Below are positions 3,540 through 53,857 of a stretch of DNA of 64,000 bases, piece after piece. Position 1 is the first letter of the stretch, and each line of letters starts with the position of its first letter. Source of the DNA: a virus. The stretch lies in the IMG/VR virus record IMGVR_UViG_3300047560_000604, positions 1 to 64,000 of that record; one strand, given 5' to 3'. The notes beneath the pieces were generated by a model. That model searched no databases and was not told the DNA's origin. It was given only the letters and a program-made list of their open reading frames with translations. A program made the translations under genes and the position numbers.

Positions 3540-3572
3540 TTGATTTTTATCTAATTGTGTATATAATAAATA
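3540..3572 (+). promoter_or_regulatory. tmRNA promoter: sigma70 type overlapping a late box
   Basis: TTGATT (3540-3545), a 16-nt spacer and TATAAT (3562-3567). The -10 merges into AATAAATA (3565-3572), a late-promoter box. The combined TATAATAAATAC also occurs upstream of the gene at 8192. This suggests transcription in both early and late infection. Confidence 0.6.
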
Positions 3573-3574
3573 CT

Positions 3575-3960: not shown

Positions 3961-3963
3961 CAC

Positions 3964-3990
3964 AATAGGGACTTCGGTCCCTATTTGTTT
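3964..3990 (+). terminator. Rho-independent terminator after tmRNA
   Basis: AATAGGGAC-TTCG-GTCCCTATT forms a 9-bp stem with a UUCG tetraloop and is followed by TGTTT. It ends the tmRNA transcription unit. Confidence 0.85.
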
Positions 3991-4043
3991 GGGTATTGTC
4001 AACGTAATTGTCACGTAAGGCGTTGTATATATGAGGAGCTTAT

Positions 4044-6221: not shown

Positions 6222-6463
6222 TGGACATGGATAACGCAGCAGTGTTCTTAGCTGGTACAATCTTGTACGCATTGGGTATTCTAATCATCCTATCAGCTAC
6301 GATTATTGCGAATAACATCATTCATAAATTTTGGAAAAGTTTCGGTTGGACATTCATGTCTTGGGTGCATCAAGAACCCGCGAGATTTATGACTCCAGAA
6401 GAAGAAGCTAAAGTTGCACCCACACTTGATCCAGTTAGTGGCGCCACACATAAAACAAAATGA
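6221..6463 (+). CDS. Single-span membrane protein
   Basis: 80 residues with a long hydrophobic segment (~8-32, VFLAGTILYALGILIILSA...) and a soluble Pro/Glu-rich C-terminal tail. Starts in the TAATG overlap with the upstream frame; its TGA overlaps the next ATG (ATGA). Function unknown. Confidence 0.75.
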   Translation: MDMDNAAVFLAGTILYALGILIILSATIIANNIIHKFWKSFGWTFMSWVHQEPARFMTPEEEAKVAPTLDPVSGATHKTK

Positions 6464-6768
6464 TTGAAAAGATTTGGTATCTCCCGGCACCGTATTCAGA
6501 AGATGACTGTGTATGGATCAACAGTTCAGGATTATTGTACGAAGTATTAAGTCCTGATAAGTGGGGTGACACTGACAGTGGATGGTGTGACTATGCTACT
6601 GGTCAAGAGGTACTAACAAATCTACACGAAGTTTATTTAAGAACCACAGATGAAAAAGGTGAGATGTGGTTGAAACTTAAATATATAGATAGAGTGAAAT
6701 TACAAAGGGTAATGAATCACAATATGTCAGAAGTATTAAGGAGAAAACAAAATGACACAATAGATTGA
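6460..6768 (+). CDS. LRW-family small protein (diverged member)
   Basis: 102 residues. The stretch VYLRTTDEKGEMWLKLKY matches the C-terminal signature of the family amplified at 45-52 kb (strand, D-E-K, aromatic, L-[RK]-[WFY]), here followed by a 21-residue basic extension. It starts at an ATGA overlap. Its last 17 nt overlap the ATG-initiated, amber-interrupted gene downstream and contain that gene's AAGGAG. Confidence 0.65.
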   Translation: MIEKIWYLPAPYSEDDCVWINSSGLLYEVLSPDKWGDTDSGWCDYATGQEVLTNLHEVYLRTTDEKGEMWLKLKYIDRVKLQRVMNHNMSEVLRRKQNDTID

Positions 6769-18123: not shown

Positions 18124-18246
18124 ATGGAAGTATTGGGAGAAACAATCGGTACAATCGTACTTGTAAGTGTAGTGGGTGGTATCATATACGCCTTCTATCG
18201 CATATTGAAATATATGCTTGATGGTATTAAGGGTAGTGACGATTGA
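18124..18246 (+). CDS. Small single-span membrane protein
   Basis: 40 residues: MEVLGETIGTIVLVSVVGG... with one transmembrane helix (~7-26) and a basic stretch after it. AAGGAG at 18113-18118 fits ATG 18124 better than ATG 18121. Stop overlaps the TTG of the next gene. Confidence 0.6.
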   Translation: MEVLGETIGTIVLVSVVGGIIYAFYRILKYMLDGIKGSDD

Positions 18247-18464
18247 TTTATGAGAGTCCAGACGGGGGTAAGACAGTTTACTCCCGTCGCCCCGGCGAAA
18301 CGGAGAGAACATTGATTCACGAAAGTACTGAAGTGCGGGCTAGAAACCGATGGGCTAAGTTTGCAAACATCTTACATCTTGCAGAGACAGAACCTGCGCT
18401 TGATGATGCAGTCAAGAAAGTGGAAATGCTTTACGCATTGTTAAAGGATAATGATGGAAGTTAA
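18243..18464 (+). CDS. Conserved small phage protein (IYESPDGGKTVY)
   Basis: 73 residues starting at a TTG that overlaps the upstream TGA (TTGA). The N-terminal MIYESPDGGKTVYSRRPG is a motif common in T4-like phages; no function is known. No upstream ATG is available in frame. Confidence 0.65.
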   Translation: MIYESPDGGKTVYSRRPGETERTLIHESTEVRARNRWAKFANILHLAETEPALDDAVKKVEMLYALLKDNDGS

Positions 18465-18711
18465 TCCTTCAGTTTGGTATGGTACACGTGAGTTGCCCGA
18501 TGTGCCACCTCACTTTATAAAAACATCAGCACCAGTTACAAGTGAATCACTATTTTGGGTAAAGTCAAAATTAGTAGGTAGATATTCTGTGTACATCGTG
18601 CCTATCACCCTATCATCTAGGACACTCACTGATTCGGGCAATACAGTTATGTATTTTGAGAATCCAGGTGAAGCAATGATGTATGAATTGCGTTGGTCCG
18701 GAAGTAAATAA
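18451..18711 (+). CDS. LRW-family small protein
   Basis: 86 residues from ATG 18451 (or 18454), overlapping the upstream gene by 14 nt, with AAAGGA upstream. The end VMYFENPGEAMMYELRW matches the C-terminal signature of the tandem family at 45-52 kb. Confidence 0.7.
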   Translation: MMEVNPSVWYGTRELPDVPPHFIKTSAPVTSESLFWVKSKLVGRYSVYIVPITLSSRTLTDSGNTVMYFENPGEAMMYELRWSGSK

Positions 18712-20202: not shown

Positions 20203-21110
20203 AACAGTACTTAGATTTATTACAAGATATTTTAGATAACGGAGAAATAAAAGATGACCGAACTGGCGTGGGCACCATTAGTGTTTTTGGACGTAATCTT
20301 CGCTTTGATTTGCGTAGGGGCTTTCCAGCCGTCACAACTAAGAAGTTGGCTTGGCGTGCTTGCAAGGGTGAACTTCTTTGGTTCCTTGAAGGATCAAATG
20401 ACGAAAGACGCCTCGCAGAAATTACGCATGGAACCTCAGACGGTACAGTTACAATCTGGACGCCCAATGCGCTTGCTCCGTATTGGAAGCCTAAGGCGAA
20501 ATTCGAAGGCGACTTGGGTCGTGTCTATGGGGTACAGTGGCGCCACTGGCAAACACCGATTGAACATAAGCAAGAAACATTTAAAGATGAATTCGGCAAT
20601 CAATACAACAGGGGCGGGGCGTACCATGTCAAAGAGACGGATCAAATCAAGAACCTCATCGAGGGCTTGAAGAAAGATCCTAACGGACGTAGACACATTA
20701 TCAATGCGTGGAACACAGGTGAGCTAGACCAAATGGCTTTACCACCATGTCACGTTATGTCGCAATTCTATGTAAACAAGAACAATGAACTTAGTTGCCA
20801 CATGTATCAACGAAGTGTTGATGTGTTTTTGGGATTACCGTTCAATATTGCAAGCTATGCGTTGTTAACTCACCTGATTGCACAAGTATGCGGTATGGGA
20901 GTTGCTGAATTGATTATCTCCACCGGTGATACTCATATCTATCAGAACCACTTAGATCAAGTAAAAGAACAATTGCAACGTGAACCATTAGCACCACCAA
21001 CGTTAGTGTTGAATCCTACGGTCACTGATATATTTGGCTTTATGATGAACGACATTGTATTGAATGATTACAAGTCTATGGACTCTATCAAAGCACAGAT
21101 GGCAGTGTAA
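20199..21110 (+). CDS. thyA: Thymidylate synthase
   Basis: 303 residues from ATG 20199, which overlaps the DHFR stop; an upstream in-frame start at 20187 is rejected. DDRTGVGTISVFG, GRVYGVQWRHW, catalytic Cys184 in LPPCHVMSQFYV, QRSVDVFLGLPFNIASY and GDTHIYQNH cover the whole family pattern. It converts dUMP to dTMP for phage DNA synthesis. Confidence 0.97.
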   Translation: MKQYLDLLQDILDNGEIKDDRTGVGTISVFGRNLRFDLRRGFPAVTTKKLAWRACKGELLWFLEGSNDERRLAEITHGTSDGTVTIWTPNALAPYWKPKAKFEGDLGRVYGVQWRHWQTPIEHKQETFKDEFGNQYNRGGAYHVKETDQIKNLIEGLKKDPNGRRHIINAWNTGELDQMALPPCHVMSQFYVNKNNELSCHMYQRSVDVFLGLPFNIASYALLTHLIAQVCGMGVAELIISTGDTHIYQNHLDQVKEQLQREPLAPPTLVLNPTVTDIFGFMMNDIVLNDYKSMDSIKAQMAV

Positions 21111-21346
21111 TGCAGTACTTGGTTAAAAAAATCAGGATGAGCGATGTGGAAGATCCTGATCTGATGGTGTCGCAACCTATATATGAGTGGCAACAAACAG
21201 ATGCTGGTAAGTATGTAATGGCTAACAGCAAGCCTGAACCCATGTGGACTAGGACCGTTGACGCAACGACATATGGGTACTTGTATTTGATACATGCAGA
21301 GTTTACACCAGAGCAAATAACATATTATAAGTTGAAATTCGAATGA
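21110..21346 (+). CDS. LRW-family small protein
   Basis: 78 residues, starting in a TAATG overlap. The end YLYLIHAEFTPEQITYYKLKFE fits the family pattern (strand, acidic turn, helix, aromatic-x-L-[RK]-[WF]). Stop overlaps the epimerase ATG. Confidence 0.65.
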   Translation: MQYLVKKIRMSDVEDPDLMVSQPIYEWQQTDAGKYVMANSKPEPMWTRTVDATTYGYLYLIHAEFTPEQITYYKLKFE

Positions 21347-40077: not shown

Positions 40078-40394
40078 ACTTTGGATTATGGCTACTCAAG
40101 CGCATGAAGCGTAAAGTCTTCGGTGGTGAGTGGGGCTGGCTATACAAGTATCGTCAATTCATTCAAGAGGAAATGGCATTGTCTATTCTGATGACTGTCA
40201 TCCTCGGCGCTATATGGACAATAGTAGTGGGCGTGATTTGTGCTTGGTTAATTGACAGCGGAGACACATTGCGAACAGTAATGAAGTGTGTGGTTGCTTG
40301 TCCTCCCTTGTTCTTTGTGTATAATTGGATCTATGGGTTATATCAGATTTATGATACTGAACGAATGGCTACTTGGAATAGGCTTAAAGAATGA
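40074..40394 (+). CDS. Membrane protein with two to three spans
   Basis: 106 residues. Hydrophobic segments at ~36-61 (LSILMTVILGAIWTIVVGVI) and ~72-90 (VMKCVVACPPLFFVYNWIYG) after a basic N-terminal region. ATGA overlaps on both sides. Function unknown. Confidence 0.75.
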   Translation: MNFGLWLLKRMKRKVFGGEWGWLYKYRQFIQEEMALSILMTVILGAIWTIVVGVICAWLIDSGDTLRTVMKCVVACPPLFFVYNWIYGLYQIYDTERMATWNRLKE

Positions 40395-40624
40395 ATGAAA
40401 AAGAAAATACATTCAGAATCTTAAAGGATGAAACACCTCTTATGAAAAGTTTTTGGTGTCGCATTGGCATTCATAACTGGACAATGTGGGGTGAACCTCA
40501 ACAAGGTGTACATGAAAATGTGTTCCTTTCAACTAAGCGTAAAGCGTTGTTCCAGTTTCGTCATTGCGGCAACTGTAATAAGATTAACAGAGGCAAGACG
40601 TTACTAGGTTCTATCTATCATTAA
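40391..40624 (+). CDS. Small Cys/His protein
   Basis: 77 residues. FWCRIGIHNWTMW and RHCGNCNK may bind zinc. It resembles the protein at 51755 (FRCRFGWHRWTSY, CADCG), so the two are likely paralogues. Last gene before a strong terminator. Confidence 0.7.
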   Translation: MNEKENTFRILKDETPLMKSFWCRIGIHNWTMWGEPQQGVHENVFLSTKRKALFQFRHCGNCNKINRGKTLLGSIYH

Positions 40625-43750: not shown

Positions 43751-44346
43751 TGGCAACTAAAAAACCCGCAATAGCAAAAGACGAAAAGTTTGAAAAGCAA
43801 GACCTTGATTTGTTTGAGGCACTAGGTGCATTAGACAAGAAGGACTATGGATATTATTCTAGGCTCACGGAAGACCAGAAGAAGAAATTCTCTCACTATA
43901 TGATGACTACTTGGATGAGTATGGTAGATTCACGCAACAGTGAATTGCAAGGATACTATATTCGTGCCACTGATATGGCAGCGAACAAGCACATGTTCAA
44001 CGAAAACGTTCAACGTCATCCTGAATTGCAATGGTTGATGCTATGTGCTATTAGTCCTGGCATGGGTGCTCAACGTAGAAAGTGGATCCCGCATCTATCA
44101 CCTAAAGTTGCGATGTTAAAAGAAACACCCAAGGCTAAAGACATAAAAGAATATTACAGCAAAATCTATCCTGGAACTAAAGACAGTGACTTGACTATGA
44201 TTAGTGATGTGTTTGTTAAAGAACACAAGAAGAAAGTATATCTAGCAAGTGTATACCCACTGATGAAACAGACTGACATTGAACTACTAGCACAAATGGT
44301 TACTGATGAAGATATTGAACAATATGAGCGAGACCGAGGAAACTAA
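43750..44346 (+). CDS. 62: Clamp-loader small subunit (gp62-like)
   Basis: 198 residues from ATG 43750 (TAATG overlap). FEALGALDKKDYGYYSRLTED, MTTWMSMVDS, HPELQWLMLCAISPGMG and RRKWIPHL match T4-like gp62. It works with gp44 to load the sliding clamp; gp44 and gp45 are not in this window. Confidence 0.85.
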   Translation: MATKKPAIAKDEKFEKQDLDLFEALGALDKKDYGYYSRLTEDQKKKFSHYMMTTWMSMVDSRNSELQGYYIRATDMAANKHMFNENVQRHPELQWLMLCAISPGMGAQRRKWIPHLSPKVAMLKETPKAKDIKEYYSKIYPGTKDSDLTMISDVFVKEHKKKVYLASVYPLMKQTDIELLAQMVTDEDIEQYERDRGN

Positions 44347-45022
44347 ACCAATATATGGTTGTGAATTTTGTAATCGTAAATTTGCAAGAGAACGCACATT
44401 AGTTTCCCACATCTGTGAAACAAAATCTAGATGGCTTAGTAGAGATACCGCAGGCAATCGTTTGGGATATCAATGCTTCTTGCAATTCTATAAAAAGAAT
44501 ACAACAGCAAAGAAACCCAAGCCATACGAGGAGTATATTCGTAGCCCGTACTATACTGCGTTTGCTAAGTTCGGTAGTTACTGTGTTGATGTGCAAGTTA
44601 TCAACGTAAGTAGATATGTTGATTGGCTATTGAAAGATAGTATCAAGCTAGATAATTGGGCAACTGACGCAAACTACACAAAGTTCTTGTGTGAGTATCT
44701 TAGAATAGAAGACCCATTTGATGCTATTTACCGAAGCGTTGAGAAGTGTGTTGAATTGGGTGAGGCCCAAAATATATTACCAAATGATGTGTTGAGATTT
44801 GGGAATGTGAACAAAATCTGTTACGCCATAACAACGGGCAAAATCTCCCCCTGGATGTTGTATTGTAGCGACAGTGGTACCCAATTTCTAGCTAACTTAA
44901 ATGAAGATCATGTTAGAATAGTCATAGATTATATAAATCCACAACAATGGGCATTGAAGTTTAACCGTGACGAAAATCTTAAACAACAAATCAGAGACAC
45001 GCTCCAAGCCGCAGGGTACTAA
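44324..45022 (+). CDS. Protein with N-terminal C2H2 zinc finger
   Basis: 233 residues from ATG 44324, overlapping gp62 by 23 nt. YGCEFCNRKFARERTLVSHIC is a C2H2-like finger (C-x2-C, then H and C). The rest (FLQFYKKNT, YVDWLLKDSIKLDNW, YINPQQWALKFNRDENLKQ) is helical. Could bind nucleic acid; I know of similar genes next to gp62 in other phages. Confidence 0.75.
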   Translation: MSETEETKPIYGCEFCNRKFARERTLVSHICETKSRWLSRDTAGNRLGYQCFLQFYKKNTTAKKPKPYEEYIRSPYYTAFAKFGSYCVDVQVINVSRYVDWLLKDSIKLDNWATDANYTKFLCEYLRIEDPFDAIYRSVEKCVELGEAQNILPNDVLRFGNVNKICYAITTGKISPWMLYCSDSGTQFLANLNEDHVRIVIDYINPQQWALKFNRDENLKQQIRDTLQAAGY

Positions 45023-45206
45023 AGTAACACTTGATTGGCGGCACGGGCGTGATGGGACAGAATCATGGAATGAGATTTGTGCTTGGGTAATTGAGCAATA
45101 TGGTATGCCAGGCACACTTTACACATGGCACCCAACGGAAGACTACATGCAGTTCTACTTTCATAGAGAAAAGGATGCTATTCATTTTAGTTTGAGGTGG
45201 TTATGA
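44967..45206 (+). CDS. LRW-family small protein (array member 1)
   Basis: Up to 79 residues from a GTG at 44967 inside the upstream gene; the true start is uncertain because the next ATG (45105) is inside the conserved region. Central WNEICAWVIEQYGMPG and C-terminal EKDAIHFSLRWL are the two family motifs. The LRW codons, TTGAGGTGG, act as ribosome-binding site for the next gene. Confidence 0.7.
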   Translation: MTKILNNKSETRSKPQGTKVTLDWRHGRDGTESWNEICAWVIEQYGMPGTLYTWHPTEDYMQFYFHREKDAIHFSLRWL

Positions 45207-45466
45207 AAGAACCCTATTTTGTTAGAGAAAGATACATTGTTAATGTATGTAGAGGTCTATGGATAGAGCCTTGGCCCAAATACTTTGATAACTTTTGGAA
45301 TCATTGTCTTGCTATTGGTCATGAAAATGAATGGCAAACTATCACTGTTGCTAACCATGAACTTAAACCATTAGGTGGTAAACTGATTATAACTAAAACA
45401 CAAGGGTGGTACTTACGTTGGGATGATGAAAAAACTCACGCATTTTTTATATTAAAGTGGTCATGA
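45203..45466 (+). CDS. LRW-family small protein (2)
   Basis: 87 residues from ATG 45203 (ATGA overlap). Family end DEKTHAFFILKWS; the central W-x3-x-G motif is weak. A Trp-rich middle (LWIEPWPKYFDNFW). Confidence 0.75.
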   Translation: MKEPYFVRERYIVNVCRGLWIEPWPKYFDNFWNHCLAIGHENEWQTITVANHELKPLGGKLIITKTQGWYLRWDDEKTHAFFILKWS

Positions 45467-45645
45467 ATCAACATAGTATCGCTATCGAAAGATGGACTTG
45501 GAAACATAGAAATGAAGTGAGAATGTGGCTAGTTGAGAACTTCGGTGTTCATGGTGGTCGCTGGTTTGAAGATCCTGACTACGGATTAGATAATCTAGTT
45601 ATGGATGAAGATGTTTATATGATGTATAGGTTGAGGTGGGAATAA
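45463..45645 (+). CDS. LRW-family small protein (3)
   Basis: 60 residues from ATG 45463, the shortest member. Central EVRMWLVENFGVHG and terminal YMMYRLRWE. ATGA and TAATG overlaps. Confidence 0.75.
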   Translation: MNQHSIAIERWTWKHRNEVRMWLVENFGVHGGRWFEDPDYGLDNLVMDEDVYMMYRLRWE

Positions 45646-45818
45646 TGGATCTTACTGAAGAACAATGTGACAAAATTTTTACTCCAAGTGAGGCAGAGCA
45701 AACTTGGCTAGTGTTACAAGGTAAATGCCCGCACAACGGCGGCTGGCGTCATGTGGGTCACGGTCATAACGATGACTGCTATGAATGTAAATTATGCAGC
45801 GAATCAAGATGGTGGTAA
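45645..45818 (+). CDS. Small Cys/His-rich protein ending in RWW
   Basis: 57 residues from ATG 45645. GKCPHNGGWRHVGHGHNDD and CYECKLCSESRWW look like a zinc-binding cluster. Not an LRW-family member despite its position in the array. Confidence 0.7.
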   Translation: MDLTEEQCDKIFTPSEAEQTWLVLQGKCPHNGGWRHVGHGHNDDCYECKLCSESRWW

Positions 45819-45819
45819 C

Positions 45820-46065
45820 ATGAGACTGAAAGCGTTCAGAGGCAATCTGATGGCGCACAAACATCGCGGTAATCGCTGGACAGTGAGAGTTGCTGGCAAG
45901 ATTGATGATGAAGTGTGGTGTTGGTTAAGTGATAATTATGGCGAAGAAGATTTTGAAAATGGTCCCTGGGCTAGAATGTATGCTTCATGGGACTATTATA
46001 GTCACGCTACTTATGATGTAACAGACCCTAAAATTATTACTATGTTGAAATTGAGGTTTGAATGA
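45820..46065 (+). CDS. LRW-family small protein (4)
   Basis: 81 residues from ATG 45820. Central DEVWCWLSDNYGEEDF and terminal DPKIITMLKLRFE. Stop overlaps the next start. Confidence 0.75.
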   Translation: MRLKAFRGNLMAHKHRGNRWTVRVAGKIDDEVWCWLSDNYGEEDFENGPWARMYASWDYYSHATYDVTDPKIITMLKLRFE

Positions 46066-46379
46066 TTACAAGTGTATGGTACTCTACGGACGATCATAGA
46101 CCTTCTGTAGAGGGTTATTACCTAGCATACAAATTGCCTACTTTAGGTGATGATGAAGAAGGCTACGGGGTATACTACTGGGATGAGTTTTATAGAGACT
46201 GGAGAGAATCGAGTTCCCCTCAGTCACACGGCGTTAGAGTTAGCTTATGGTCAGAATTGCCACCACACGACCCTCGTGATAATACTGTACATCCACCCTC
46301 AGTAGCAGAAATTGACGCTTGGAATAATGTGATGAATGCCATTGACAAATTTAACATGGTGAAAGAGTTGAGTAGATAA
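46062..46379 (+). CDS. DUF551-like protein
   Basis: 105 residues. VWYSTDDHRPSVEGYYLAY, VYYWDEFYRDW and VSLWSELPPH follow the DUF551 pattern (W...P..G.YL, then V.HW.PLP) common in phages; function unknown. Sits within the LRW array. Confidence 0.7.
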   Translation: MITSVWYSTDDHRPSVEGYYLAYKLPTLGDDEEGYGVYYWDEFYRDWRESSSPQSHGVRVSLWSELPPHDPRDNTVHPPSVAEIDAWNNVMNAIDKFNMVKELSR

Positions 46380-46723
46380 TGTTAGAAGTTGTGAACAAGA
46401 TTCTCGGAATGTTTGGTAAAGACATTCAAGCGAAAGCTACCCGAAAGATAGCAAACCCCGGTGACCAATTTAGCCCATTTAAGATAGTAGATGGGTATAT
46501 TGGGTTTAAACCTTTCCTAATTATTGAGAATCAAAACGAAACTATGTTATACTCACATGACTGTGTAGCAATTGATACCCGGTCAGAAGTTGAATTATGG
46601 ATACTTGACCAACCAGTTCACATGTGGAAGTATGCAGAAGAATGTGATGATTGTCACCCTGCAATGACAAGATTTTTAGTAAACAAAGAATTATTAACTT
46701 GGATGGAGTTAAAATGGAATTGA
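46379..46723 (+). CDS. LRW-family small protein (5), long form
   Basis: 114 residues from ATG 46379 (TAATG overlap). Terminal NKELLTWMELKWN. The central W-helix motif is replaced by SEVELWILDQP. Its end overlaps the next gene by 11 nt. Confidence 0.7.
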   Translation: MLEVVNKILGMFGKDIQAKATRKIANPGDQFSPFKIVDGYIGFKPFLIIENQNETMLYSHDCVAIDTRSEVELWILDQPVHMWKYAEECDDCHPAMTRFLVNKELLTWMELKWN

Positions 46724-47151
46724 ATCACTTATCAGATAATGAATTGATTGAGCATATCATTAGATATGATAATGACCCTGTGAGGGTTCGTCTTGCCACT
46801 CACATGCAACGAGTTAGTGGTGCTATCATTGATGACTTGCTTGATGCTGGTATGGATGACACATGGTGTAATTTTGATAGTGTTGTGAATGGTGCTCAAT
46901 ATCACCCCGGTCGATATATTACGCACCTTGAGAATGAAGTTGAATATCTTAACGACAAATTATCCGACGCCCTCAAAGAAATCAAAGAACTTCAAGCACG
47001 AACTATCATGGACTTTATCGGTGAACTTAAACAAGAGATTAAGACTGTAGAATGGTGCAGAGATGAGGCTTACAGAGATAGAGACAAAGCACAAGAGAAT
47101 GAAAAGTTGATGAAAAGTAAACTTAGCATGTGGGCTGAGTTGAACAGATGA
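46713..47151 (+). CDS. Coiled-coil protein in the LRW array
   Basis: 146 residues from ATG 46713 (preceded by GGAG). The C-terminal half is a coiled coil (ITHLENEVEYLNDKLSDALKEIKEL). Not an LRW-family member. ATGA overlap with the next gene. Confidence 0.7.
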
Positions 47152-47372
47152 ACGATAAAGTGAAAAGTTTTATGGAACAATGGTTCGGTGAAGAAGAACT
47201 CAATGACAAGTACTGGCCCTATCAGTTTACTATCAATGACTGGCAACGTATTCGTGAAACTGAACGATTTTGCTATAACAGTTTTAAAAGTGGTAACTGG
47301 CGCAATCGTGGAAGATACTTTGGATTCAAACGTAAGCAAGATTACGAATGGTTCTTATTAAGGTGGCTATGA
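47148..47372 (+). CDS. LRW-family small protein (6)
   Basis: 74 residues. SFMEQWFGEEELND near the N-terminus and RKQDYEWFLLRWL at the end. The codons TTAAGGTGG give the next ribosome-binding site. Confidence 0.75.
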   Translation: MNDKVKSFMEQWFGEEELNDKYWPYQFTINDWQRIRETERFCYNSFKSGNWRNRGRYFGFKRKQDYEWFLLRWL

Positions 47373-47626
47373 GAGTAGAGTTTAATCAAGGCGTACCCGA
47401 AGGATGTAAGCAATGGCTTTGGGATAATGTCGGACCCGGCAATATAACATTGACTAGACCTGGTATCATTGACACAAAAGATAGTCCCGAGTATGCTTGG
47501 TTCTTTGAGCGTATTAAGAAACCAACAACCCCGGAATCGTTTTATGACGACCCATTTTATTTTGTCCCTACTATCACAGTGAAAGATGAAAAGATGGCAA
47601 CAATATTTGCTTTGAGGTGGCTATGA
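47369..47626 (+). CDS. LRW-family small protein (7)
   Basis: 85 residues from ATG 47369. CKQWLWDNVGPGN and terminal DEKMATIFALRWL. TTGAGGTGG then ATGA. Confidence 0.78.
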   Translation: MRVEFNQGVPEGCKQWLWDNVGPGNITLTRPGIIDTKDSPEYAWFFERIKKPTTPESFYDDPFYFVPTITVKDEKMATIFALRWL

Positions 47627-47871
47627 TGGATTTAGAACTTGTAAAAAAGATTGTGGCTAGACAAGGGCAGAATGAGTTTCTCAAAAAACCTATCGTATTG
47701 CCACCCGAAGCAAAAGTTGTCACTGGTCAAATGAAGGAAGATGCTTACTTACATTTCCTAGAAACTAACTGCGGGGTAGAGATACATTTGTCAGAATATC
47801 ATAACGAGATAGTTGGGTACAATGTCATTGATGAAAAGAAATTTTCTTGGTTTGTATTGAAATGGTCATGA
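47623..47871 (+). CDS. LRW-family small protein (8)
   Basis: 82 residues from ATG 47623 (ATGA overlap; ATG 47626 is the alternative). FLETNCGVEI and terminal DEKKFSWFVLKWS. Confidence 0.75.
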   Translation: MMDLELVKKIVARQGQNEFLKKPIVLPPEAKVVTGQMKEDAYLHFLETNCGVEIHLSEYHNEIVGYNVIDEKKFSWFVLKWS

Positions 47872-47882
47872 AGGGACAATAA

Positions 47883-48221
47883 ATGGCACAGCCAATCATC
47901 ATGCCAATAATTAGACAGGTGACACCCACTTTACTAGCTAATAGTATCTTAGGTGTACAACCCATGACGGGCCCGGTGGGTGAAATCTTTACTATGAAGG
48001 CTAACTACGCTCCGCTCAAATATAAATTTAGCCGTGCTAAATGGTACTATGCAGACCATCGTTATGAAGATTATGATGCTATCATAGCATGGTGTACTGA
48101 ACAGTTTGGTCCGCGACCCAAACGCCCTGATGCATGGACACGATGGGTTGATGAACACATTGACCGTATTAAATTCCGTGACGAAAAAGATTATGCTTGG
48201 TTTGTGTTGAGATGGTCATGA
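47883..48221 (+). CDS. LRW-family small protein (9), N-terminally extended
   Basis: 112 residues. An added N-terminal ~40 residues rich in Ile/Pro/Met, then AIIAWCTEQFGPRPK and terminal DEKDYAWFVLRWS. AAGGGA before the start; the only member here with a short gap to its upstream neighbour. Confidence 0.75.
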   Translation: MAQPIIMPIIRQVTPTLLANSILGVQPMTGPVGEIFTMKANYAPLKYKFSRAKWYYADHRYEDYDAIIAWCTEQFGPRPKRPDAWTRWVDEHIDRIKFRDEKDYAWFVLRWS

Positions 48222-48496
48222 CAGATACAGTCAAACTAGAGTGGACAGATATTTGTCGCCACGAGCATAGGTGTGAGAGCGGGAAAATGTTCCATCACAC
48301 TGTGCCCAGCTATAGTGTATACGTTCAAGCATACCAATGGTTGCGGGTAGAGCGTGGGTATAAGTTTATATGTGCTGCAGCCGAGATATCAGAGGAAGAA
48401 TACCCGGAAAGGGGTGGTAAAATTCACACCGGCAGATTCATATTCAAGTTCTTATGTGAGCAAGAGTATATGTGGTTTAAGTTGAGGTGGAGTTAA
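48218..48496 (+). CDS. LRW-family small protein (10)
   Basis: 92 residues from ATG 48218. YVQAYQWLRVERGYKF and terminal CEQEYMWFKLRWS. TTGAGGTGG precedes the next TAATG start. Confidence 0.75.
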   Translation: MTDTVKLEWTDICRHEHRCESGKMFHHTVPSYSVYVQAYQWLRVERGYKFICAAAEISEEEYPERGGKIHTGRFIFKFLCEQEYMWFKLRWS

Positions 48497-48774
48497 TGGA
48501 ATATTTTTACGGTGGCGGCGGCAACAATCGCCCTGTCTTTTTATACAGATTTAAAGTCAACCCTTGTACTACTGAAATGTATAAGTGGGCACAAGCATAT
48601 CCTGAGAAAGGTCCCTTCAGTCGGTTTCATGTTGAATGGCGAGGGGCTTATAGCAAAATGGATAGACCCTTAGAATATGATGTAATTCAGTTTGAACATA
48701 GTGAAGCCGCTAAAGTATTCAGAATCGCATTTGCGGGTGAGTATGAAGAAACCACTTTCAAAGAATACAGATGA
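48496..48774 (+). CDS. LRW-family small protein (11), diverged end
   Basis: 92 residues from ATG 48496. EMYKWAQAYPEKG and HSEAAKVFRIAF in place of LRW, followed by a short acidic tail. Confidence 0.7.
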   Translation: MEYFYGGGGNNRPVFLYRFKVNPCTTEMYKWAQAYPEKGPFSRFHVEWRGAYSKMDRPLEYDVIQFEHSEAAKVFRIAFAGEYEETTFKEYR

Positions 48775-49001
48775 ACAAGTACGATTACTGGAGATTGTTA
48801 AGAATTCTTAAAACAGAATATGATAAACAGTATACTGGTTACTATGAACCGACATATACTGGTTTCACAGATTCGTTTGACAAGTACATACAAGAACAGT
48901 ACGGAATAAAAATGTGGATTCATAATGACGGTAATATTGATGGTACTTTTGAAATTCTAGACGAAGGTAAGTATGCATGGTGCCTACTTAAACATAAATG
49001 A
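48771..49001 (+). CDS. LRW-family small protein (12)
   Basis: 76 residues. DKYIQEQYGIKM and terminal DEGKYAWCLLKHK. Confidence 0.72.
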   Translation: MNKYDYWRLLRILKTEYDKQYTGYYEPTYTGFTDSFDKYIQEQYGIKMWIHNDGNIDGTFEILDEGKYAWCLLKHK

Positions 49002-49438
49002 AAATACTTAGACGAATCAAAGCCTACGTTAGACTCAAAAAGAGCAGAAATTTTCTAAAGAAACATAAGTGTTTATCTTATAAACAATACAAGCTCCAGT
49101 ATGACGATGATATAATTAAGTACGCTACTTTGGTTAGCCACTTCTATCACGGTTACCCATATACATGTTACTTTGAGAAAGTACCCGACGGTGAGTTGTT
49201 GATGCCTTGGTTAGAGAAAATGGACGATTGGTGTCATACTAATTGTTCGGGTAAAGTCAGACATGATATCCATAGAGTTATTCGGGAAAAGGGCTTGATT
49301 CACAATCAATATGATGATACAATGATATGGAGTGATATAGAAGATTTTTCCATGAATGATATCGGTGGACATGACTTGTTATTCTATGCGTTTAAAAGTG
49401 AAAAGGATTATGCGTGGTTCAAACTAAGATGGCAGTAA
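48998..49438 (+). CDS. LRW-family protein (13), long form
   Basis: 146 residues. A basic N-terminal extension (LRRIKAYVRLKKSRNFLKKHK) precedes the family domain, which has DDWCHTNCSG and terminal SEKDYAWFKLRWQ. Overlaps the next gene by 10 nt. Confidence 0.75.
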   Translation: MKILRRIKAYVRLKKSRNFLKKHKCLSYKQYKLQYDDDIIKYATLVSHFYHGYPYTCYFEKVPDGELLMPWLEKMDDWCHTNCSGKVRHDIHRVIREKGLIHNQYDDTMIWSDIEDFSMNDIGGHDLLFYAFKSEKDYAWFKLRWQ

Positions 49439-49692
49439 AAACCAAAGAAGAAGAAATGATGGATATCTTGGCTGAAGAAATTCGCAAAGAAATTGATGAG
49501 GGTATCATATCAAATATATTAGTTGAGACTGGATGGACACCTGTACAGTTTTATTTTAAGAACGGTGAGCAAGCAGTTGATGTACAGATTTGGTTAGCCG
49601 GAACATGTACTGATGACTATCGTAGATTGGGCAGTGACTACTTGTTTAAAAGTAAGCAAGATGCTGAATGGTTTATTCTACGATGGCTATGA
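49429..49692 (+). CDS. LRW-family small protein (14)
   Basis: 87 residues from ATG 49429. Acidic helical N-terminus (EEEMMDILAEEIRKEI), then VQIWLAGTCTDD and terminal KQDAEWFILRWL. Confidence 0.75.
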   Translation: MAVKTKEEEMMDILAEEIRKEIDEGIISNILVETGWTPVQFYFKNGEQAVDVQIWLAGTCTDDYRRLGSDYLFKSKQDAEWFILRWL

Positions 49693-49946
49693 CATTCAAA
49701 ATTGATGAGGGCAGAGTGTATGGAGCACGATACTATACCGCAAAACCTCATTGTGATGATTGGGATGAAGCAGTCCCATGGTACATACTACAAGACTGGG
49801 TAGAAGAAATGTTCGGAGAAAGTAAGGGTTCTATATGGTTTGATAAGGGAATACCTCAACCAGGTGAAAGATGGTATGTGAACAATGCGAAATTTTGGTT
49901 TCGCAACAAAGAAGATTTAGAATGGTTTTTATTAAGATGGCAATGA
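49689..49946 (+). CDS. LRW-family small protein (15)
   Basis: 85 residues from ATG 49689 (ATGA overlap; an in-frame ATG at 49683 is the alternative). LQDWVEEMFGESKG and terminal NKEDLEWFLLRWQ. Confidence 0.77.
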   Translation: MTFKIDEGRVYGARYYTAKPHCDDWDEAVPWYILQDWVEEMFGESKGSIWFDKGIPQPGERWYVNNAKFWFRNKEDLEWFLLRWQ

Positions 49947-50188
49947 AAATAGAAGCAACAAAAGAGTTAGTCCAAATGATTGAACGTTCCGCACGTGAGT
50001 GGAAGAGGATCAAACCAATCCTAGAAGAAAAACATCGTCATTATGATACCTACGCTGAAGATATGTTCGGGATCAATGTCGATTTTGGTGTGTTTGATAA
50101 CAAGGTAGCTATCATTGGTGCCCAAATAATAGATGATGAAAAGTACGTCAACTTTCTATTAAGGTACGGAGACATGCCAAATGAGTAA
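49943..50188 (+). CDS. LRW-family small protein (16)
   Basis: 81 residues from ATG 49943. TYAEDMFGINVDF and DDEKYVNFLLRYGDMPNE, with a six-residue tail after LRY. Confidence 0.75.
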   Translation: MKIEATKELVQMIERSAREWKRIKPILEEKHRHYDTYAEDMFGINVDFGVFDNKVAIIGAQIIDDEKYVNFLLRYGDMPNE

Positions 50189-50465
50189 TATGCACAAAGC
50201 AGTAAAAGAAATTAAAGAATTAGGCTCCTTCAGATATTGGGATGAACACTACTACGGCAGTAAACGAACTATTACTACTATTACTTGGAAAGGCAGGGGC
50301 GAAGTTGACTCTGATGAAATACAAGATTGGTGTTTAACCTCATTTGGTAAGAGCGGCTATCAAGAAGAAATCGAAGATAGTCTTTGGGTTGATAATTGTC
50401 AGTACGGTGAGCTTATGTTATGTAGACCCGAACTACTCACAGCGTTTTTATTAAGATGGACATGA
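50181..50465 (+). CDS. LRW-family small protein (17)
   Basis: 94 residues, overlapping the upstream gene by 8 nt. IQDWCLTSFGKSGY and terminal RPELLTAFLLRWT. Confidence 0.75.
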   Translation: MSNMHKAVKEIKELGSFRYWDEHYYGSKRTITTITWKGRGEVDSDEIQDWCLTSFGKSGYQEEIEDSLWVDNCQYGELMLCRPELLTAFLLRWT

Positions 50466-50728
50466 AATTTGACATAAACAGAAGCATAGGCTGGAACATA
50501 GATAGAAGAATTGTGAAGCGTACTGACATTATCACAGACGGCGCAGATTGCTATCCATGGACTGAAACGTTTGTCATTTGGCCCAGACGAAGTATTTCGG
50601 GTGCTCCGTTGTTCTGGACTAAAGCATACAAGCGTAGAGTTTGGGTAGTATGGGGTACGGGGTTTCATATGGAACCAGAAGTTCAATATGCTACAGCATT
50701 TGATTTGTTGACACATGGTAACGATTAA
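50462..50728 (+). CDS. LRW-family small protein (18), diverged
   Basis: 88 residues from ATG 50462. The end VQYATAFDLLTHGND is a weak version of the motif; a Trp-rich middle (RRVWVVWGTGFHM). Overlaps the next gene by 14 nt. Confidence 0.68.
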   Translation: MKFDINRSIGWNIDRRIVKRTDIITDGADCYPWTETFVIWPRRSISGAPLFWTKAYKRRVWVVWGTGFHMEPEVQYATAFDLLTHGND

Positions 50729-50966
50729 ACTTAAACGAGGGCTAGAGCCACAAGCAGAACAATGGCTTGCTAAGAATGTGGGGCCAAGAATGCACTACCT
50801 CCATAATTCAATCGGTGGAGAAGGCTGGATCGCTAAGAAAGGTACCGAACCATTTGAGTATACCGATCAACAAGGTAATACGAGACAAATGACTGTTATA
50901 GTATGGAACCTCACATTCCAAGAAGATAAGTATGCTACTTGGTTTAGGATAATGTTTCCAGAATGA
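50715..50966 (+). CDS. LRW-family small protein (19)
   Basis: 83 residues. AEQWLAKNVGPRMH and terminal EDKYATWFRIMFPE. Confidence 0.73.
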   Translation: MVTIKLKRGLEPQAEQWLAKNVGPRMHYLHNSIGGEGWIAKKGTEPFEYTDQQGNTRQMTVIVWNLTFQEDKYATWFRIMFPE

Positions 50967-51181
50967 TAGAGGTTAAACTCATAGATTTGATGCCCAATGA
51001 GATTATGGACATCGTAAAAGAACTAAGAAAGAACGGGTGTGTACAGGGTTTGGACTTTGATTTTGAGTATCATAAGCCCAAATATGATGACTTCGGCCAT
51101 GAACCAGTGTATAATAGACATACAATATTCAAGTTTTACAAAGAAGAATTAGCGACTTGGTTCGCATTGAGGTATCAATAG
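50963..51181 (+). CDS. LRW-family small protein (20), TAG stop
   Basis: 72 residues. Terminal KEELATWFALRYQ, then TAG overlapping the GTG of the next gene (TAGTG). The family boundary argues that this TAG is a true stop even though a UAG-reading tRNA is encoded. Confidence 0.75.
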   Translation: MIEVKLIDLMPNEIMDIVKELRKNGCVQGLDFDFEYHKPKYDDFGHEPVYNRHTIFKFYKEELATWFALRYQ

Positions 51182-51465
51182 TGGCAATATCAGGTATAGG
51201 TAATAGCACAGGCACATTCATGCCCTACACAGGGACTCGTCCGCCTGAGGATCAAAGTAAATATGAAATTCATCACATGGGTAAAATCTTTCATCAGATT
51301 GATTTGAAATTTAGTAAAATTGATCCAGTAGACTATATTAAATGGTGCCGTAGAAATCTAGGTGATCGCGGTTCTACATGGGAGTTCTGGATGGCAGGTG
51401 GAATGTTGTATATTGAAGTCTGGGGCGAGAAGGCAAAGTTTACTTATGAAATGTGGAAGAACTAA
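51181..51465 (+). CDS. LRW-family small protein (21), GTG start
   Basis: 94 residues from GTG 51181, preceded by TTGAGGT. YIKWCRRNLGDRGS and EKAKFTYEMWKN, a diverged end. Confidence 0.68.
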   Translation: MAISGIGNSTGTFMPYTGTRPPEDQSKYEIHHMGKIFHQIDLKFSKIDPVDYIKWCRRNLGDRGSTWEFWMAGGMLYIEVWGEKAKFTYEMWKN

Positions 51466-51758
51466 TGAGTGAGCTAGTAGCAATCAATGGAATTGTACAA
51501 GCACGTAGCCAATACATGGTATCCGGGGATAACATCGTGTTTCACATCGCACCGCCGTGCGGCTCAAGAATCTGTATTCTGTCAGAAGATGGTAGGTCTG
51601 ACTATGAAGGCACCGGCGACACGTATGTGTACCCAGGGGCTTCTAATGAAAGAACAAAATACAAACAGTTTATGGAAGATGTTTATGACAAACGTTATAA
51701 CCCAACAGTCAAAGACGCATTAGAGAAATTAAAAGTAGTAATGGAATTAGTACGATGA
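51465..51758 (+). CDS. Hypothetical protein in the LRW array
   Basis: 97 residues from ATG 51465 (TAATG overlap). Beta-rich start (YMVSGDNIVFHIAPPCGSR), helical end (VKDALEKLKVVMELVR). No family features recognised. Confidence 0.65.
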   Translation: MSELVAINGIVQARSQYMVSGDNIVFHIAPPCGSRICILSEDGRSDYEGTGDTYVYPGASNERTKYKQFMEDVYDKRYNPTVKDALEKLKVVMELVR

Positions 51759-51955
51759 GTGCCGAGAATACATGGCGTGTAGTTGCAGGACTTAAACCCA
51801 TCCAATCATTTCGTTGCCGCTTTGGTTGGCATCGCTGGACTAGTTATGAAGTTGTAGAGCGACATGAATTCTCCATGCCATACGCCAAGTGTCATTGTGC
51901 AGACTGTGGATTACCTAGAATAGAACAACCCTACTCAAGCAAGAAAGAAAAGTAA
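51755..51955 (+). CDS. Small Cys/His protein, paralogue of 40391 gene
   Basis: 66 residues. FRCRFGWHRWTSY and CHCADCGLPR; zinc binding plausible. Similar to the protein at 40391-40624. Confidence 0.68.
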   Translation: MSAENTWRVVAGLKPIQSFRCRFGWHRWTSYEVVERHEFSMPYAKCHCADCGLPRIEQPYSSKKEK

Positions 51956-52200
51956 TGGCTAATGCTTCACGCACTTGGCAAGAAAATCTAAAACAGTGGC
52001 AAAATTCAGATTTACCGGGTCTTTCAAATAGTCTCAATGAAATTGATATGCTCGTATTAGTACATGGTAAGATGCAAGAGTTATACCCGGGCAATTATTC
52101 ACTTGATTGGAAGTTTGATTCAGTAACCGGGGCTTTCAAGTTGTATCCGAAATTTAACACACCAGAAGACGAGACTTGGTTCATATTAAAATATAGTTAA
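51955..52200 (+). CDS. LRW-family small protein (22), last in array
   Basis: 81 residues. Terminal PEDETWFILKYS with a strand-rich middle (SLDWKFDSVTGAFKLYP). Ends the array; TAA then the late promoter of the HNH gene. Confidence 0.72.
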   Translation: MANASRTWQENLKQWQNSDLPGLSNSLNEIDMLVLVHGKMQELYPGNYSLDWKFDSVTGAFKLYPKFNTPEDETWFILKYS

Positions 52201-52229
52201 GGAAACAAACGACATTATGATTGACGAAT

Positions 52230-52237
52230 GATAAATA
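52230..52237 (+). promoter_or_regulatory. Late promoter GATAAATA in an inverted repeat
   Basis: GATAAATA lies inside TGATAAA-tac-TTTATCA, a perfect 7-bp inverted repeat. CAGGAG follows before ATG 52258. Confidence 0.55.
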
Positions 52238-52257
52238 CTTTATCAGGAGTTAAAACA

Positions 52258-52875
52258 ATGGATTACAGGAAACTTTGGGAATCGCACAACGGACCTATAC
52301 CAAAAGATAAAGATGGTAGAAGTTATGAAATACATCACATTGATGGTAACCATCAAAATAATGTCATTGAAAATTTGAAATTAGTAACTATTCAAGAACA
52401 CTATGATGTACATTATTCGCAAGGTGACTACGGGGCATGTCTGGCTATCATTATGAGAATGAATGTTCCGGTTGAGGTGTCAAAGAAATTACAAAGCAAA
52501 CTAAGTAAAGCAGTTGCCGCAAAACGCATTGCCGAAGGCACCCATAACTTTTCATCCGAACTTAGTAAGCGAGTTCAGAAAGAAAGATTAGATAATGGAA
52601 CACACAACTTTCAAGGTGAACAAGGTAGCCTTAATGCTGTACAACGCAATAATAAACTAGTAGAATTAGGAAAGCATCCGTGGGCAGGTGAGTTAGGAAA
52701 GATTCATAATAAGAAAGTAGCTACTGAAAGAATTGCTAATGGTACGCATAACTTTCAAGGAGAGATGAACCCTAATAAAAACATGCCTAAGGTAACATGC
52801 CCACATTGTGGTAAAGTAGGTGGTCGTAATTCAATGAAACGATACCATTTTGATAATTGTAAGAATAAGGAATAA
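52258..52875 (+). CDS. HNH homing endonuclease
   Basis: 205 residues from ATG 52258 with CAGGAG upstream. YEIHHIDGNHQNNVIENLKL is the HNH core (residues ~23-42). Repeated NUMOD3-like units (RIAEGTHNFSSELSKRV, RLDNGTHNFQGE, RIANGTHNFQGE) and a C-terminal zinc finger (CPHCGKVGGRNSMKRYHFDNC). Late expressed. A third mobile endonuclease in the window. Confidence 0.9.
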   Translation: MDYRKLWESHNGPIPKDKDGRSYEIHHIDGNHQNNVIENLKLVTIQEHYDVHYSQGDYGACLAIIMRMNVPVEVSKKLQSKLSKAVAAKRIAEGTHNFSSELSKRVQKERLDNGTHNFQGEQGSLNAVQRNNKLVELGKHPWAGELGKIHNKKVATERIANGTHNFQGEMNPNKNMPKVTCPHCGKVGGRNSMKRYHFDNCKNKE

Positions 52876-52877
52876 GT

Positions 52878-53438
52878 ATGGCGGCGGACATTATGATAGA
52901 TATTGAGAGTTTAGACACAACACCTGATTGTGCTATTCTTACGATTGGTGCAGTAAGATTTGATCCTAAGGGTTCAGGTGTTGTTGAAAAACTTGAACTT
53001 AGACCTACATTAGAAGACCAAACAGAAAAATATAATAGGAGAATTAGTGATGATACACTTCGTTGGTGGTCCGAGCAGTCCCCAGAAGCCCTCGAGGAAG
53101 CGATGGGCGACAGAGGCCGTGTCCCGTTTGCTGAATGCATGGAGACGCTATATAAGTTTTGTTGGAATCGCCGTGCTGTTTGGAGTAACGGTGCTCCATT
53201 CGACTTGGTCGTTATGGAGCACGCCTGGCGACAAACAAGTGATAAACCAAATCCTATCCCTTGGCCGTTCTGGACAATGAGAGATACTAGAACTCTCTTT
53301 GAAATAGCAGGTGTTAAACTAAGTGATGGCGGCCATTCTACGAGTCACAAGGCTGTGGAAGATGCTGAACGACAAGCCATTGTCGTACAAAAAGCATATA
53401 TGAAACTAATCAAAGCAGAATTGGTAGCACCACGATGA
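52878..53438 (+). CDS. DEDDh 3'-5' exonuclease (Rv2179c/RNase T-like)
   Basis: 186 residues. IMIDIESLDTTPDCAILTIGA (Exo I, DxE), SNGAPFDLVVMEHAW (Exo II) and GGHSTSHKAVEDAERQA (Exo III, H-x4-D). Could trim RNA or DNA ends; T4 DexA has an analogous fold. Ends at an ATGA overlap with endonuclease VII. Confidence 0.87.
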   Translation: MAADIMIDIESLDTTPDCAILTIGAVRFDPKGSGVVEKLELRPTLEDQTEKYNRRISDDTLRWWSEQSPEALEEAMGDRGRVPFAECMETLYKFCWNRRAVWSNGAPFDLVVMEHAWRQTSDKPNPIPWPFWTMRDTRTLFEIAGVKLSDGGHSTSHKAVEDAERQAIVVQKAYMKLIKAELVAPR

Positions 53439-53857
53439 GTATTTTTTCTGATCTGTTTCACACACAGGAGAACGATATCATGCACACAAAGATGTGTAGC
53501 ATGTGCAATCGAACTTTGCCCGCGAACGGTGCTCATTTTGCAAAAGAAGGTAGCAAGGGATATTTGCGATATGAGTGCAGGGATTGTGCTAAGAAACACA
53601 GCAAACTATTAGCAAAGATTAAAAAGTCAGCACCTAAAGTTGCAGTTGACCACAAATGTCCTGTGTGTTTAAGAGGTGCAGCCGATCTCAAAACTTATGG
53701 AAAAAACAAAAAATCAGTTTGGGTCGCTGACCATGACCATGCTACTGAAAAGTTTCGAGGGTGGCTGTGTCACAAGTGTAACTTAGGTCTAGGTAATTTA
53801 GGTGATGATGCAGAACGATGTATTAGAGCCGCGGAGTATTTAAAAAATGAAGTTTAA
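53435..53857 (+). CDS. 49: Recombination endonuclease VII
   Basis: 140 residues. Zinc-type CSMCNRTLPANGAHF and CRDCAKKH, then CPVCLRGA and the HNH-like core VADHDHATEKFRGWLCHKCN plus GLGNLGDD. It resolves Holliday junctions and branched DNA before packaging. Coupled to the exonuclease by ATGA. Confidence 0.93.
   Translation: MSIFSDLFHTQENDIMHTKMCSMCNRTLPANGAHFAKEGSKGYLRYECRDCAKKHSKLLAKIKKSAPKVAVDHKCPVCLRGAADLKTYGKNKKSVWVADHDHATEKFRGWLCHKCNLGLGNLGDDAERCIRAAEYLKNEV

Follow-up and report, generated by a model that had tools for sequence, protein, structure and literature searches.

Do the many small genes between positions 44967 and 52200 of the 64,000-nt stretch of phage DNA analysed here (the window) encode copies of one protein domain and, if so, what might such a set do for the phage? 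The window belongs to a 133-kb fragment from a jumbo myophage related to Sinorhizobium phage Phosso. An earlier note on this DNA had described a tandem array of about 22 paralogues at this locus, and indeed we found the array there, with all of its 27 genes on the + strand. The number of paralogues had been set slightly high: a C-terminal motif ending in L-R-W (LRW) is present in 19 of the 27 genes, 17 in canonical form and two as variants, or in 20 if one borderline gene is counted. It is absent from the seven genes that start at 45642, 46062, 46720, 50462, 51178, 51462 and 51755.

Array membership and the LRW domain

The C-terminal motif by which we define the family is F-x-F-x4-[EK]-D-x2-[WM]-F-x-L-[RK]-[WF]. 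Membership was assessed with a 16-residue tail profile, which was trained on other contigs only and scanned against the 713 ORFs of the 133-kb record. The profile selected 17 array ORFs and the dispersed ORF 21110, at scores between 13 and 42, the next-best of the 713 ORFs reaching 3.9, and scores above 10 had a frequency of < 1e-5 among 100,000 random protein 16-mers. An offset-tolerant scan brought in 49943-50188 and 50715-50966 (p about 0.001-0.002) as well as 18451, and left 48493-48774 borderline (p 0.05). Among the members previously claimed outside the array, 18451 and 21110 hold, with tail scores of 27.9 and 13.4, and 6460, which carries the motif internally (LRTTDEKGEMWLKLKY; score 12.4 vs 8.6 at the 99.9% point of the null), is probable as judged from its sequence, but the one at 7236/7314 found no support (p 0.06). 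The central helix motif W-[CLV]-x3-[FYV]-G described before is also present, its Trp being invariant in a 44-sequence alignment. The array, its flanks and the dispersed members are listed below.

44306..45022, +, left flank: conserved phrog_11058 gene
44967..45206, +, LRW-domain gene 1 (tail scan; HMM match 45021-45203)
45203..45466, +, LRW-domain gene 2 (tail scan; ATGA overlap with gene 1)
45463..45645, +, LRW-domain gene 3 (tail scan, HMM)
45642..45818, +, array gene without domain (tail scan)
45820..46065, +, LRW-domain gene 4 (tail scan, HMM; earlier in-frame ATG at 45751)
46062..46379, +, array gene without domain (tail scan; helical tail ...AIDKFNMVKELSR)
46379..46723, +, LRW-domain gene 5 (tail scan; related bodies elsewhere have a gp23 N-arm N-terminus)
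46720..47151, +, array gene without domain (tail scan)
47148..47372, +, LRW-domain gene 6 (tail scan; L107 relative has a gp23 N-arm N-terminus)
47369..47626, +, LRW-domain gene 7 (tail scan, HMM)
47623..47871, +, LRW-domain gene 8 (tail scan)
47883..48221, +, LRW-domain gene 9, gp23 segment fused to an LRW domain
47886..48020, +, gp23-derived N-terminal segment of gene 9 (PF07068 positions 4-48)
48218..48496, +, LRW-domain gene 10 (tail scan, HMM)
48493..48774, +, borderline member, degenerate tail (offset-tolerant scan, p 0.05)
48771..49001, +, LRW-domain gene 11 (tail scan)
48998..49438, +, LRW-domain gene 12 (tail scan, HMM)
49432..49692, +, LRW-domain gene 13 (tail scan; N-terminus weakly like PF07068 171-198, E 7e-4)
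49689..49946, +, LRW-domain gene 14 (HMM; predicted structure)
49943..50188, +, LRW-domain gene 15, a variant extended at the C-terminus (offset-tolerant scan)
50181..50465, +, LRW-domain gene 16 (tail scan, HMM)
50462..50728, +, array gene without domain (tail scan)
50715..50966, +, LRW-domain gene 17, variant tail WFRIMF (offset-tolerant scan)
50963..51181, +, LRW-domain gene 18 (tail scan, HMM)
51178-51465, 51462-51758 and 51755-51955, +, three array genes without domain (tail scan)
51955..52200, +, LRW-domain gene 19, the last of the array (tail scan)
52228..52875, +, HNH_3 endonuclease adjoining the array
52878..53438, +, right flank: conserved exonuclease (PF16473)
18451..18711, +, dispersed LRW-domain gene (tail scan, HMM)
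21110..21346, +, dispersed LRW-domain gene, weaker tail (tail profile and offset-tolerant scan)
6460..6768, +, probable dispersed member, internal tail motif (score 12.4)

The LRW domain comprises about 60-70 residues in the order strands, helix, two strands, helix, and ends in F-x-F-x-D-E-K-D-x-x-W-F-x-L-R-W. A full-domain HMM gave E-values as low as 3e-21 in the window and, at E up to 1, found 13 places in the window's record, 27 in G006, 33 in G016, 38 in Phosso and zero in T4. Structure prediction, proposed earlier as a test of a common fold, covered two members, the others being assigned by profile only: the AlphaFold model of 49689 is confident (mean pLDDT 86, pTM 0.77), and the body of 47883 was likewise predicted to fold, with pLDDT 81-88.

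Neither Pfam nor PHROGs holds a family for the domain, described anti-defence and anti-CRISPR families included; besides chance-level matches, these searches returned only gp23 for 47883-like members. In two fold searches of the PDB, no match fell below E 0.6. The model does resemble three uncharacterised proteins of uncultured Caudovirales phages, A0A6J5KVW6, A0A6J5T1G0 and A0A6J5L6V8 (Foldseek E 9e-6 to 9e-4, TM 0.63-0.69), which carry neither name nor assigned function. No relative of 47883 was found in a scan of bacterial genomes, and a tblastn search of cultured phages matched neither the 47883 body nor 49432, so that the relation to Phosso is visible only by profile. In the literature, we found no description of arrays of this type.

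Gene junctions and codon bias

In LRW, Arg is encoded by AGG in 111 of 141 genes (79%) vs 48 of 764 (6%) elsewhere and Leu by TTG in 61%, and the gene-end codons TTG AGG TGG also fit the Shine-Dalgarno sequence of the downstream gene. In 117 of 179 cases the next start lies inside the stop (ATGA), and similar 24-bp junctions (tgGTTTataTTGAGGTGGncATGA) occur at most gene boundaries. Codon choice in LRW is strongly biased towards Shine-Dalgarno use for the next gene. This bias, with L-R-W codons that look selected for such use, favours a view that the earlier note had raised against its own reading, namely that the C-terminal likeness is merely that of shared ribosome-binding-site codons in unrelated overlapping genes. 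However, the array still stood out when the three LRW columns were masked (scores of 6 to 29.5), the tail is kept at 52200 and 18711, where there is no overlap with a next gene, and the HMM matches and the common predicted fold extend over the full domain. The masked profile thus rules out ribosome-binding codons as the sole explanation, although their effect is real and strong, and we consider a likeness due to those codons alone extremely improbable.

If each cassette supplies its neighbour's translation signal, it could be placed anywhere, every LRW gene might be interchangeable, and the shared junctions would allow the array to grow and be reshuffled by recombination.

Inside the array we counted 44 promoter-like sites (shuffles: 32 plus or minus 5) and saw no terminator excess; these counts are compatible with a single transcription unit but do not prove one.

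Capsid-protein pieces and probable enzyme pieces on LRW-domain proteins

Some LRW-domain proteins carry pieces of gp23 and of other hallmark phage proteins, a feature that we had not expected and that the earlier note had missed. Residues 3-46 of 47883 match PF07068 with 49.3 bits, the curated cut-off being 24.4 (E 6e-13; 1.0e-13 in another search). The match covers positions 5-48 (4-48 in the other search) of ~376, short of a full HK97-type capsid protein, and 47883 is a carrier of a gp23 fragment, not a capsid protein. Its segment is equivalent to residues 93-131 of T4 gp23, to which it is 44% identical (E 2e-11 when compared with that sequence only), and along 39 residues it shares 59% identity with the complete gp23 of a related 364-kb genome. 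In the model of 47883 the gp23 segment is predicted to be disordered and the body is confident. As a control, a pattern scan of viral contigs yielded 112 complete ORFs containing the gp23 peptide, and not one of them was short.

The gp23 N-arm is found on two further body types, again at the N-terminus, in relatives of 46379 (G006, G016 and other contigs) and in a relative of 47148 (L107). The N-terminus of 49432 is weakly similar to the gp23 helix region (PF07068 171-198, E 7e-4), and XYS97328.1 of Phosso joins the LRW domain to a C-terminal segment of gp23, which scores above the Pfam cut-off (E 9e-6). In a tree built from 34 residues and lacking support values, the gp23 pieces on 47883-type and on 46379/47148-type bodies lie apart, which suggests two separate groups, the pieces being too short for firm claims.

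Enzymes are probably represented as well. A P-loop piece in relatives resembles that of the phage's DnaB helicase, scoring higher than every shuffle (E 5.5e-7 against a small set); its RQTGKS is identical to the terminase P-loop, yet the alignment favours DnaB, and the terminase was rejected as source. Relatives L202-L207, L099 and L108 carry a piece, YQSNLCKEI...LCTLG, whose motif recurs in several contigs and which is probably the NrdA active site: L202, L203, L205 and L206 scored 23-25 bits against G006 NrdA, slightly above shuffle maxima of 20-22, and the piece reached E about 0.1 in Pfam and PHROG. Taken as a set, the chimeric relatives gave weak NrdA, DnaB and terminase matches only against Pfam and PHROGs. 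Since only the conserved motifs of source proteins are recognisable, the apparent preference for active sites may be a detection bias, and as no mimic piece can be recognised in the majority of members, the family as a whole cannot work by mimicry.

Could these pieces be functionless scars, gene ends and target sites of homing endonucleases or inteins pasted in by recombination? They are short and centred on conserved motifs, where inteins and introns typically insert; the window array is flanked by an HNH_3 gene and an endonuclease VII-like gene; and the N-terminal pieces have a history different from that of their bodies (pS 0.73 for the fragment and 0.22 for the body, window vs L018). We nevertheless find this rather improbable, as the gp23 piece of 47883 stays in frame, with its sequence kept, in about ten other contigs and has a dN/dS of mostly 0.07-0.2 where dS is unsaturated, gp23 and NrdA are uninterrupted in related complete genomes, and a motif scan found no HNH gene beside related arrays. 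The same scan speaks against HNH-driven growth of the array.

Because, by the gp23 alignment, the tail of 47883 corresponds to the part of T4 gp23 that probably holds the Lit-activating Gol site, EF-Tu would be its most concrete candidate partner; we know of no Lit-type protease in hosts of these phages. The Gol region of T4 gp23 functions in Lit/EF-Tu exclusion, binding EF-Tu and inhibiting its GTPase (PMC3014915). Both this activity and the likeness to T4 gp23 fit a takeover of translation, in which 47883-type proteins are free Gol-like ligands on domains II/III of EF-Tu that slow or redirect translation while other members bind other host factors. Such a role is distinctly unlikely as an account of the array, however, for it covers one body type only and leaves out the NrdA and P-loop pieces, and EF-Tu binding by the 47883 segment is itself putative. 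The capture of several gp23 regions (N-arm, helix region and C-terminal segment) could also point to superinfection exclusion, with gp23 pieces poisoning how T4-like phages in the same cell assemble their capsids, while further members act on further rival proteins. But the pieces most resemble gp23 of the phage's own kind, so that self-poisoning would be expected, and a 10-residue piece is unlikely to inhibit NrdA; we regard this explanation as very doubtful.

Turnover, proposed role and known systems

Arrays are gained, lost and reordered between relatives, and related contigs hold reordered cassettes, up to 28 in a single array. dN/dS has a median of 0.24 and stays at or below 1 in all 103 unsaturated ortholog pairs; the testable pairs are under purifying selection, and positive selection was not found. 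The interpretation offered earlier gains support from the confident common fold, the high copy number, the rapid turnover and the reordering, but diversification in the sense of positive selection does not; the set owes its diversity to genes gained, lost and shuffled and to exchanged N-termini. One domain in massive copy number, rapidly turned over and reordered, is as expected of an arms-race gene set; a direct arms race between proteins would leave a signature other than the purifying selection that every measured pair shows.

Our preferred reading, which we hold to be about evenly balanced between right and wrong, is that sequence and gene order reflect a modular cassette array of one uncatalogued domain that may encode arms-race effectors, some with decoy-like mimics. 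The LRW proteins would be accessory effectors binding host or rival-phage targets, each body with a different specificity, and the anti-defence or host-takeover role suggested earlier would be a candidate function. The hallmark pieces, predicted disordered tails on a folded domain, would serve as bait, imitating the real protein and occupying a sensor or partner otherwise acting on capsid protein, with EF-Tu the candidate partner for 47883. That the array as such is a decoy repertoire, in which recombining cassettes present gp23, helicase P-loop and NrdA peptides on a common carrier to occupy immune sensors or partners, seems unlikely to us. The recurrence of mimic pieces in the cultured phage Phosso makes the idea of a decoy or EF-Tu ligand directly testable. 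Anonymous 'hypothetical protein' sequence in jumbo phages thereby becomes a named, measurable family, one small fold with dozens of copies per genome, and the arrays suggest a route by which large phages may keep and reshuffle accessory proteins with translation signals intact.

As far as we know, the fusion of capsid-protein and probable core-enzyme pieces to such a domain is undescribed. T4 gp23 has homologous segments in 47883 (residues 93-131) and, for its C-terminus, in XYS97328.1, but the chimeras hold only 40-55 gp23 residues on an unrelated folded domain, which makes a capsid fold impossible. T4 internal proteins, built of a conserved leader and a variable effector, are modular in the same leader-plus-effector way and likewise form a diversified set; they share the leader and vary the effector, whereas the LRW genes share a C-terminal domain, and no capsid-targeting leader was recognised in LRW proteins. 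The accessory and early gene clusters of T4-like phages resemble the window in small overlapping genes, unknown or anti-defence function and high turnover. Anti-defence genes of T4-like phages are amplified in tandem, driven by SegB (PMC13096335), and a homing-type endonuclease gene adjoins the window array too. In contrast to that amplification, LRW arrays comprise as many as 28 members of one domain, diverged and not recent duplicates, share a 24-bp coding junction and, outside the window, showed no adjoining HNH gene in the motif scan. Lastly, the PA5oct-like Pseudomonas phage phi30-3 has three LRW-type proteins, and those of Phosso match the HMM down to 8e-11 with the tail DAMLFKLxW. Unlike the window array, the Phosso members, annotated as hypothetical, are longer (about 60-160 residues) and lie in many small clusters, but one of them occupies the syntenic place preceding the exonuclease gene.

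Gene array and its setting

Between positions 44,967 and 52,200 lie 27 genes, 17 of which were matched by a profile of the LRW tail (C-terminal, ending W-F-x-L-R-W) trained on contigs other than the window's record, with wide margins over the remaining ORFs. A variant form of the tail is present in two more array genes, and a further gene is a borderline case. The array and shared tail described in the earlier note are borne out, with this tally replacing its approximately 22 genes. Outside the array, 18451 and 21110 (members are named by gene start) belong to the family and 6460 probably does; 7314, also put forward, is unsupported. The likeness persists with L, R and W masked, contrary to the suggestion that shared ribosome-binding-site codons alone might account for it. 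A profile of 44 aligned sequences matched 13 places in the record, with E down to 3e-21, and by this comparison the shared domain extends past the tail.

The record is 133,466 bp long, the window being its bases 1-64,000. Its UvsX has 70% identity to that of Sinorhizobium phage Phosso, closely followed by the jumbo phages CBB, GAP32 and Atu_ph07, which makes the record most likely a jumbo myophage fragment.

Features around the array and elsewhere in the window
3562-4011 (+), phage-encoded permuted-type tmRNA with predicted tag ANDSAYSLAA (95 bits to Rfam RF04321)
6078-6154 (+), tRNA with CTA anticodon (ARAGORN label Pyl)
44306-45022, conserved phrog_11058 gene, one border of the array
52228-52875, HNH_3 endonuclease gene, right of the array
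52878-53438, exonuclease gene, other border of the array
53435-53857, endonuclease VII-type gene, also to the right of the array

In six related contigs or genomes among those examined, arrays adjoin the phrog_11058 gene, the exonuclease gene or both, and in Phosso one LRW-type gene occupies the place before the exonuclease. The CTA-anticodon tRNA is a possible amber suppressor, although TAG is the stop codon in 10 of the 187 rough gene calls for the record; among these is an LRW gene that stops where such genes normally do.

A possible second small-protein family, with a helical C-terminus like ...DAxxKxxMLxxLxK/R, occurs at window positions 46062-46379, 51462-51758 and 18243-18464, at record positions 133068-133364 and in Phosso at 182.3-182.9 kb, where the protein also bears a gp23 N-arm. 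Small paralogous genes (BLAST E 1e-4) lie inside the array at 51755-51955 and outside it at 40391-40624.

Junction, fold and selection

Eleven records, one of them the window's and the other ten related to it, supplied 179 array genes. AGG encodes the LRW arginine in 111 of 141 of them, vs 48 of 764 for other arginine codons, and 117 of the 179 genes overlap the next start by the four bases ATGA. The consensus of the whole junction is tgGTTTataTTGAGGTGGncATGA. Because of this bias and overlap, the conserved tail doubles as domain end and, by codon choice, as putative Shine-Dalgarno of the next gene. Such a junction would make cassettes interchangeable, as supported by related arrays that share some cassettes in changed order with others interposed. 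The largest array has 28 genes (genome G016), and genome G006 has two on opposite strands.

AlphaFold modelled 49689, with 43 relatives, at pLDDT 86 and pTM 0.77 as two strands, a helix, two short strands and a C-terminal helix. The C-terminal half of 47883 takes the same fold (pLDDT 75-88) behind a disordered N-terminal part, in keeping with the common fold that the earlier note had wanted tested by structure prediction. A structure search found no solved structure resembling the domain model and three uncharacterised proteins from uncultured phages that do; the releases of Pfam and PHROGs that were searched contain no entry for the domain, and it has no PDB relative. Together these results make it an unannotated domain family rather than an artefact.

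Among 103 unsaturated ortholog pairs the median dN/dS is 0.24 and none exceeds 1, indicating proteins kept by selection. Ongoing positive selection, one sense in which the earlier note's idea of diversification could be taken, is thus absent from these pairs; the paralog diversity is old, or arose via gain and loss.

Hallmark pieces and proposed role

The N-terminus of 47883 is a segment of the major capsid protein gp23 (PF07068, E 6e-13), matching T4 gp23 residues 93-131 and 59% identical over 39 residues to the complete gp23 of a related 364-kb genome. No complete gp23 was seen in the 133,466-bp record, consistent with its being a fragment. The chimera is kept in about ten other contigs, and in a control pattern scan none of 112 complete ORFs bearing the gp23 peptide was a short protein. 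Between the window and contig L018, pS is 0.22 in the LRW-bearing body vs 0.73 in the gp23 piece, so the piece seems to be exchanged separately.

Similar gp23 N-arm pieces sit on 46379-type bodies (G006, G016, L123-L129) and a 47148-type body (L107). Elsewhere, 47883-type bodies bear a DnaB-like P-loop (GGFKxGExxxxxxGRQTGKS), an NrdA-like active site (YQSNLCKEI...LCTLG) or a gp23-like YYAPYIP, which against shuffled queries were clear, modest and merely suggestive, respectively. In cultured Phosso, one LRW protein starts with a gp23 C-terminal segment, over the Pfam cut-off, and a second ORF has the gp23 N-arm without an LRW tail; G012, G013 and G014 also encode short gp23-bearing proteins without LRW.

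In G012, adjacent small genes (L035/L104) share a leader, EEEADEIxxRL, and carry gp23 regions 3-48 and 146-194 with no LRW dependence. The jumbo phage G013 has a shortened second gp23 paralog (L046, 216736-217845, ~369 residues) besides a complete one. The N-terminus of window 46379-46723, ...PGDQFSPFKIVDGY, is similar to G006 gp23 ...GEEALSPFKIAQAY downstream of the N-arm, over too few residues for a verdict.

The strongest rival explanation is that the pieces are recombination debris of homing or intein sites; the dN/dS of the gp23 piece, low wherever measurable, argues against pure debris. Beyond the observed fold family, junction, turnover, purifying selection and hallmark pieces, we give about even chances to LRW proteins being accessory effectors that would act on host or rival targets, the hallmark pieces serving them as bait. 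The full decoy-repertoire reading is rather unlikely. What makes a link from 47883 to Gol appealing is that Lit, a protease, is activated via EF-Tu by a short region within the first quarter of gp23, reportedly the most conserved one in that protein (PMC3014915). High conservation by itself would make a piece from this region the easiest to recognise. We take the region to coincide with residues 93-131.

A literature search yielded no description of such a single-domain array with dual-use junction and hallmark chimeras. Small accessory gene clusters are a known kind in large phages; to our knowledge, an array built on one domain, joined by coding junctions of double use and including chimeras with hallmark proteins, is undescribed.
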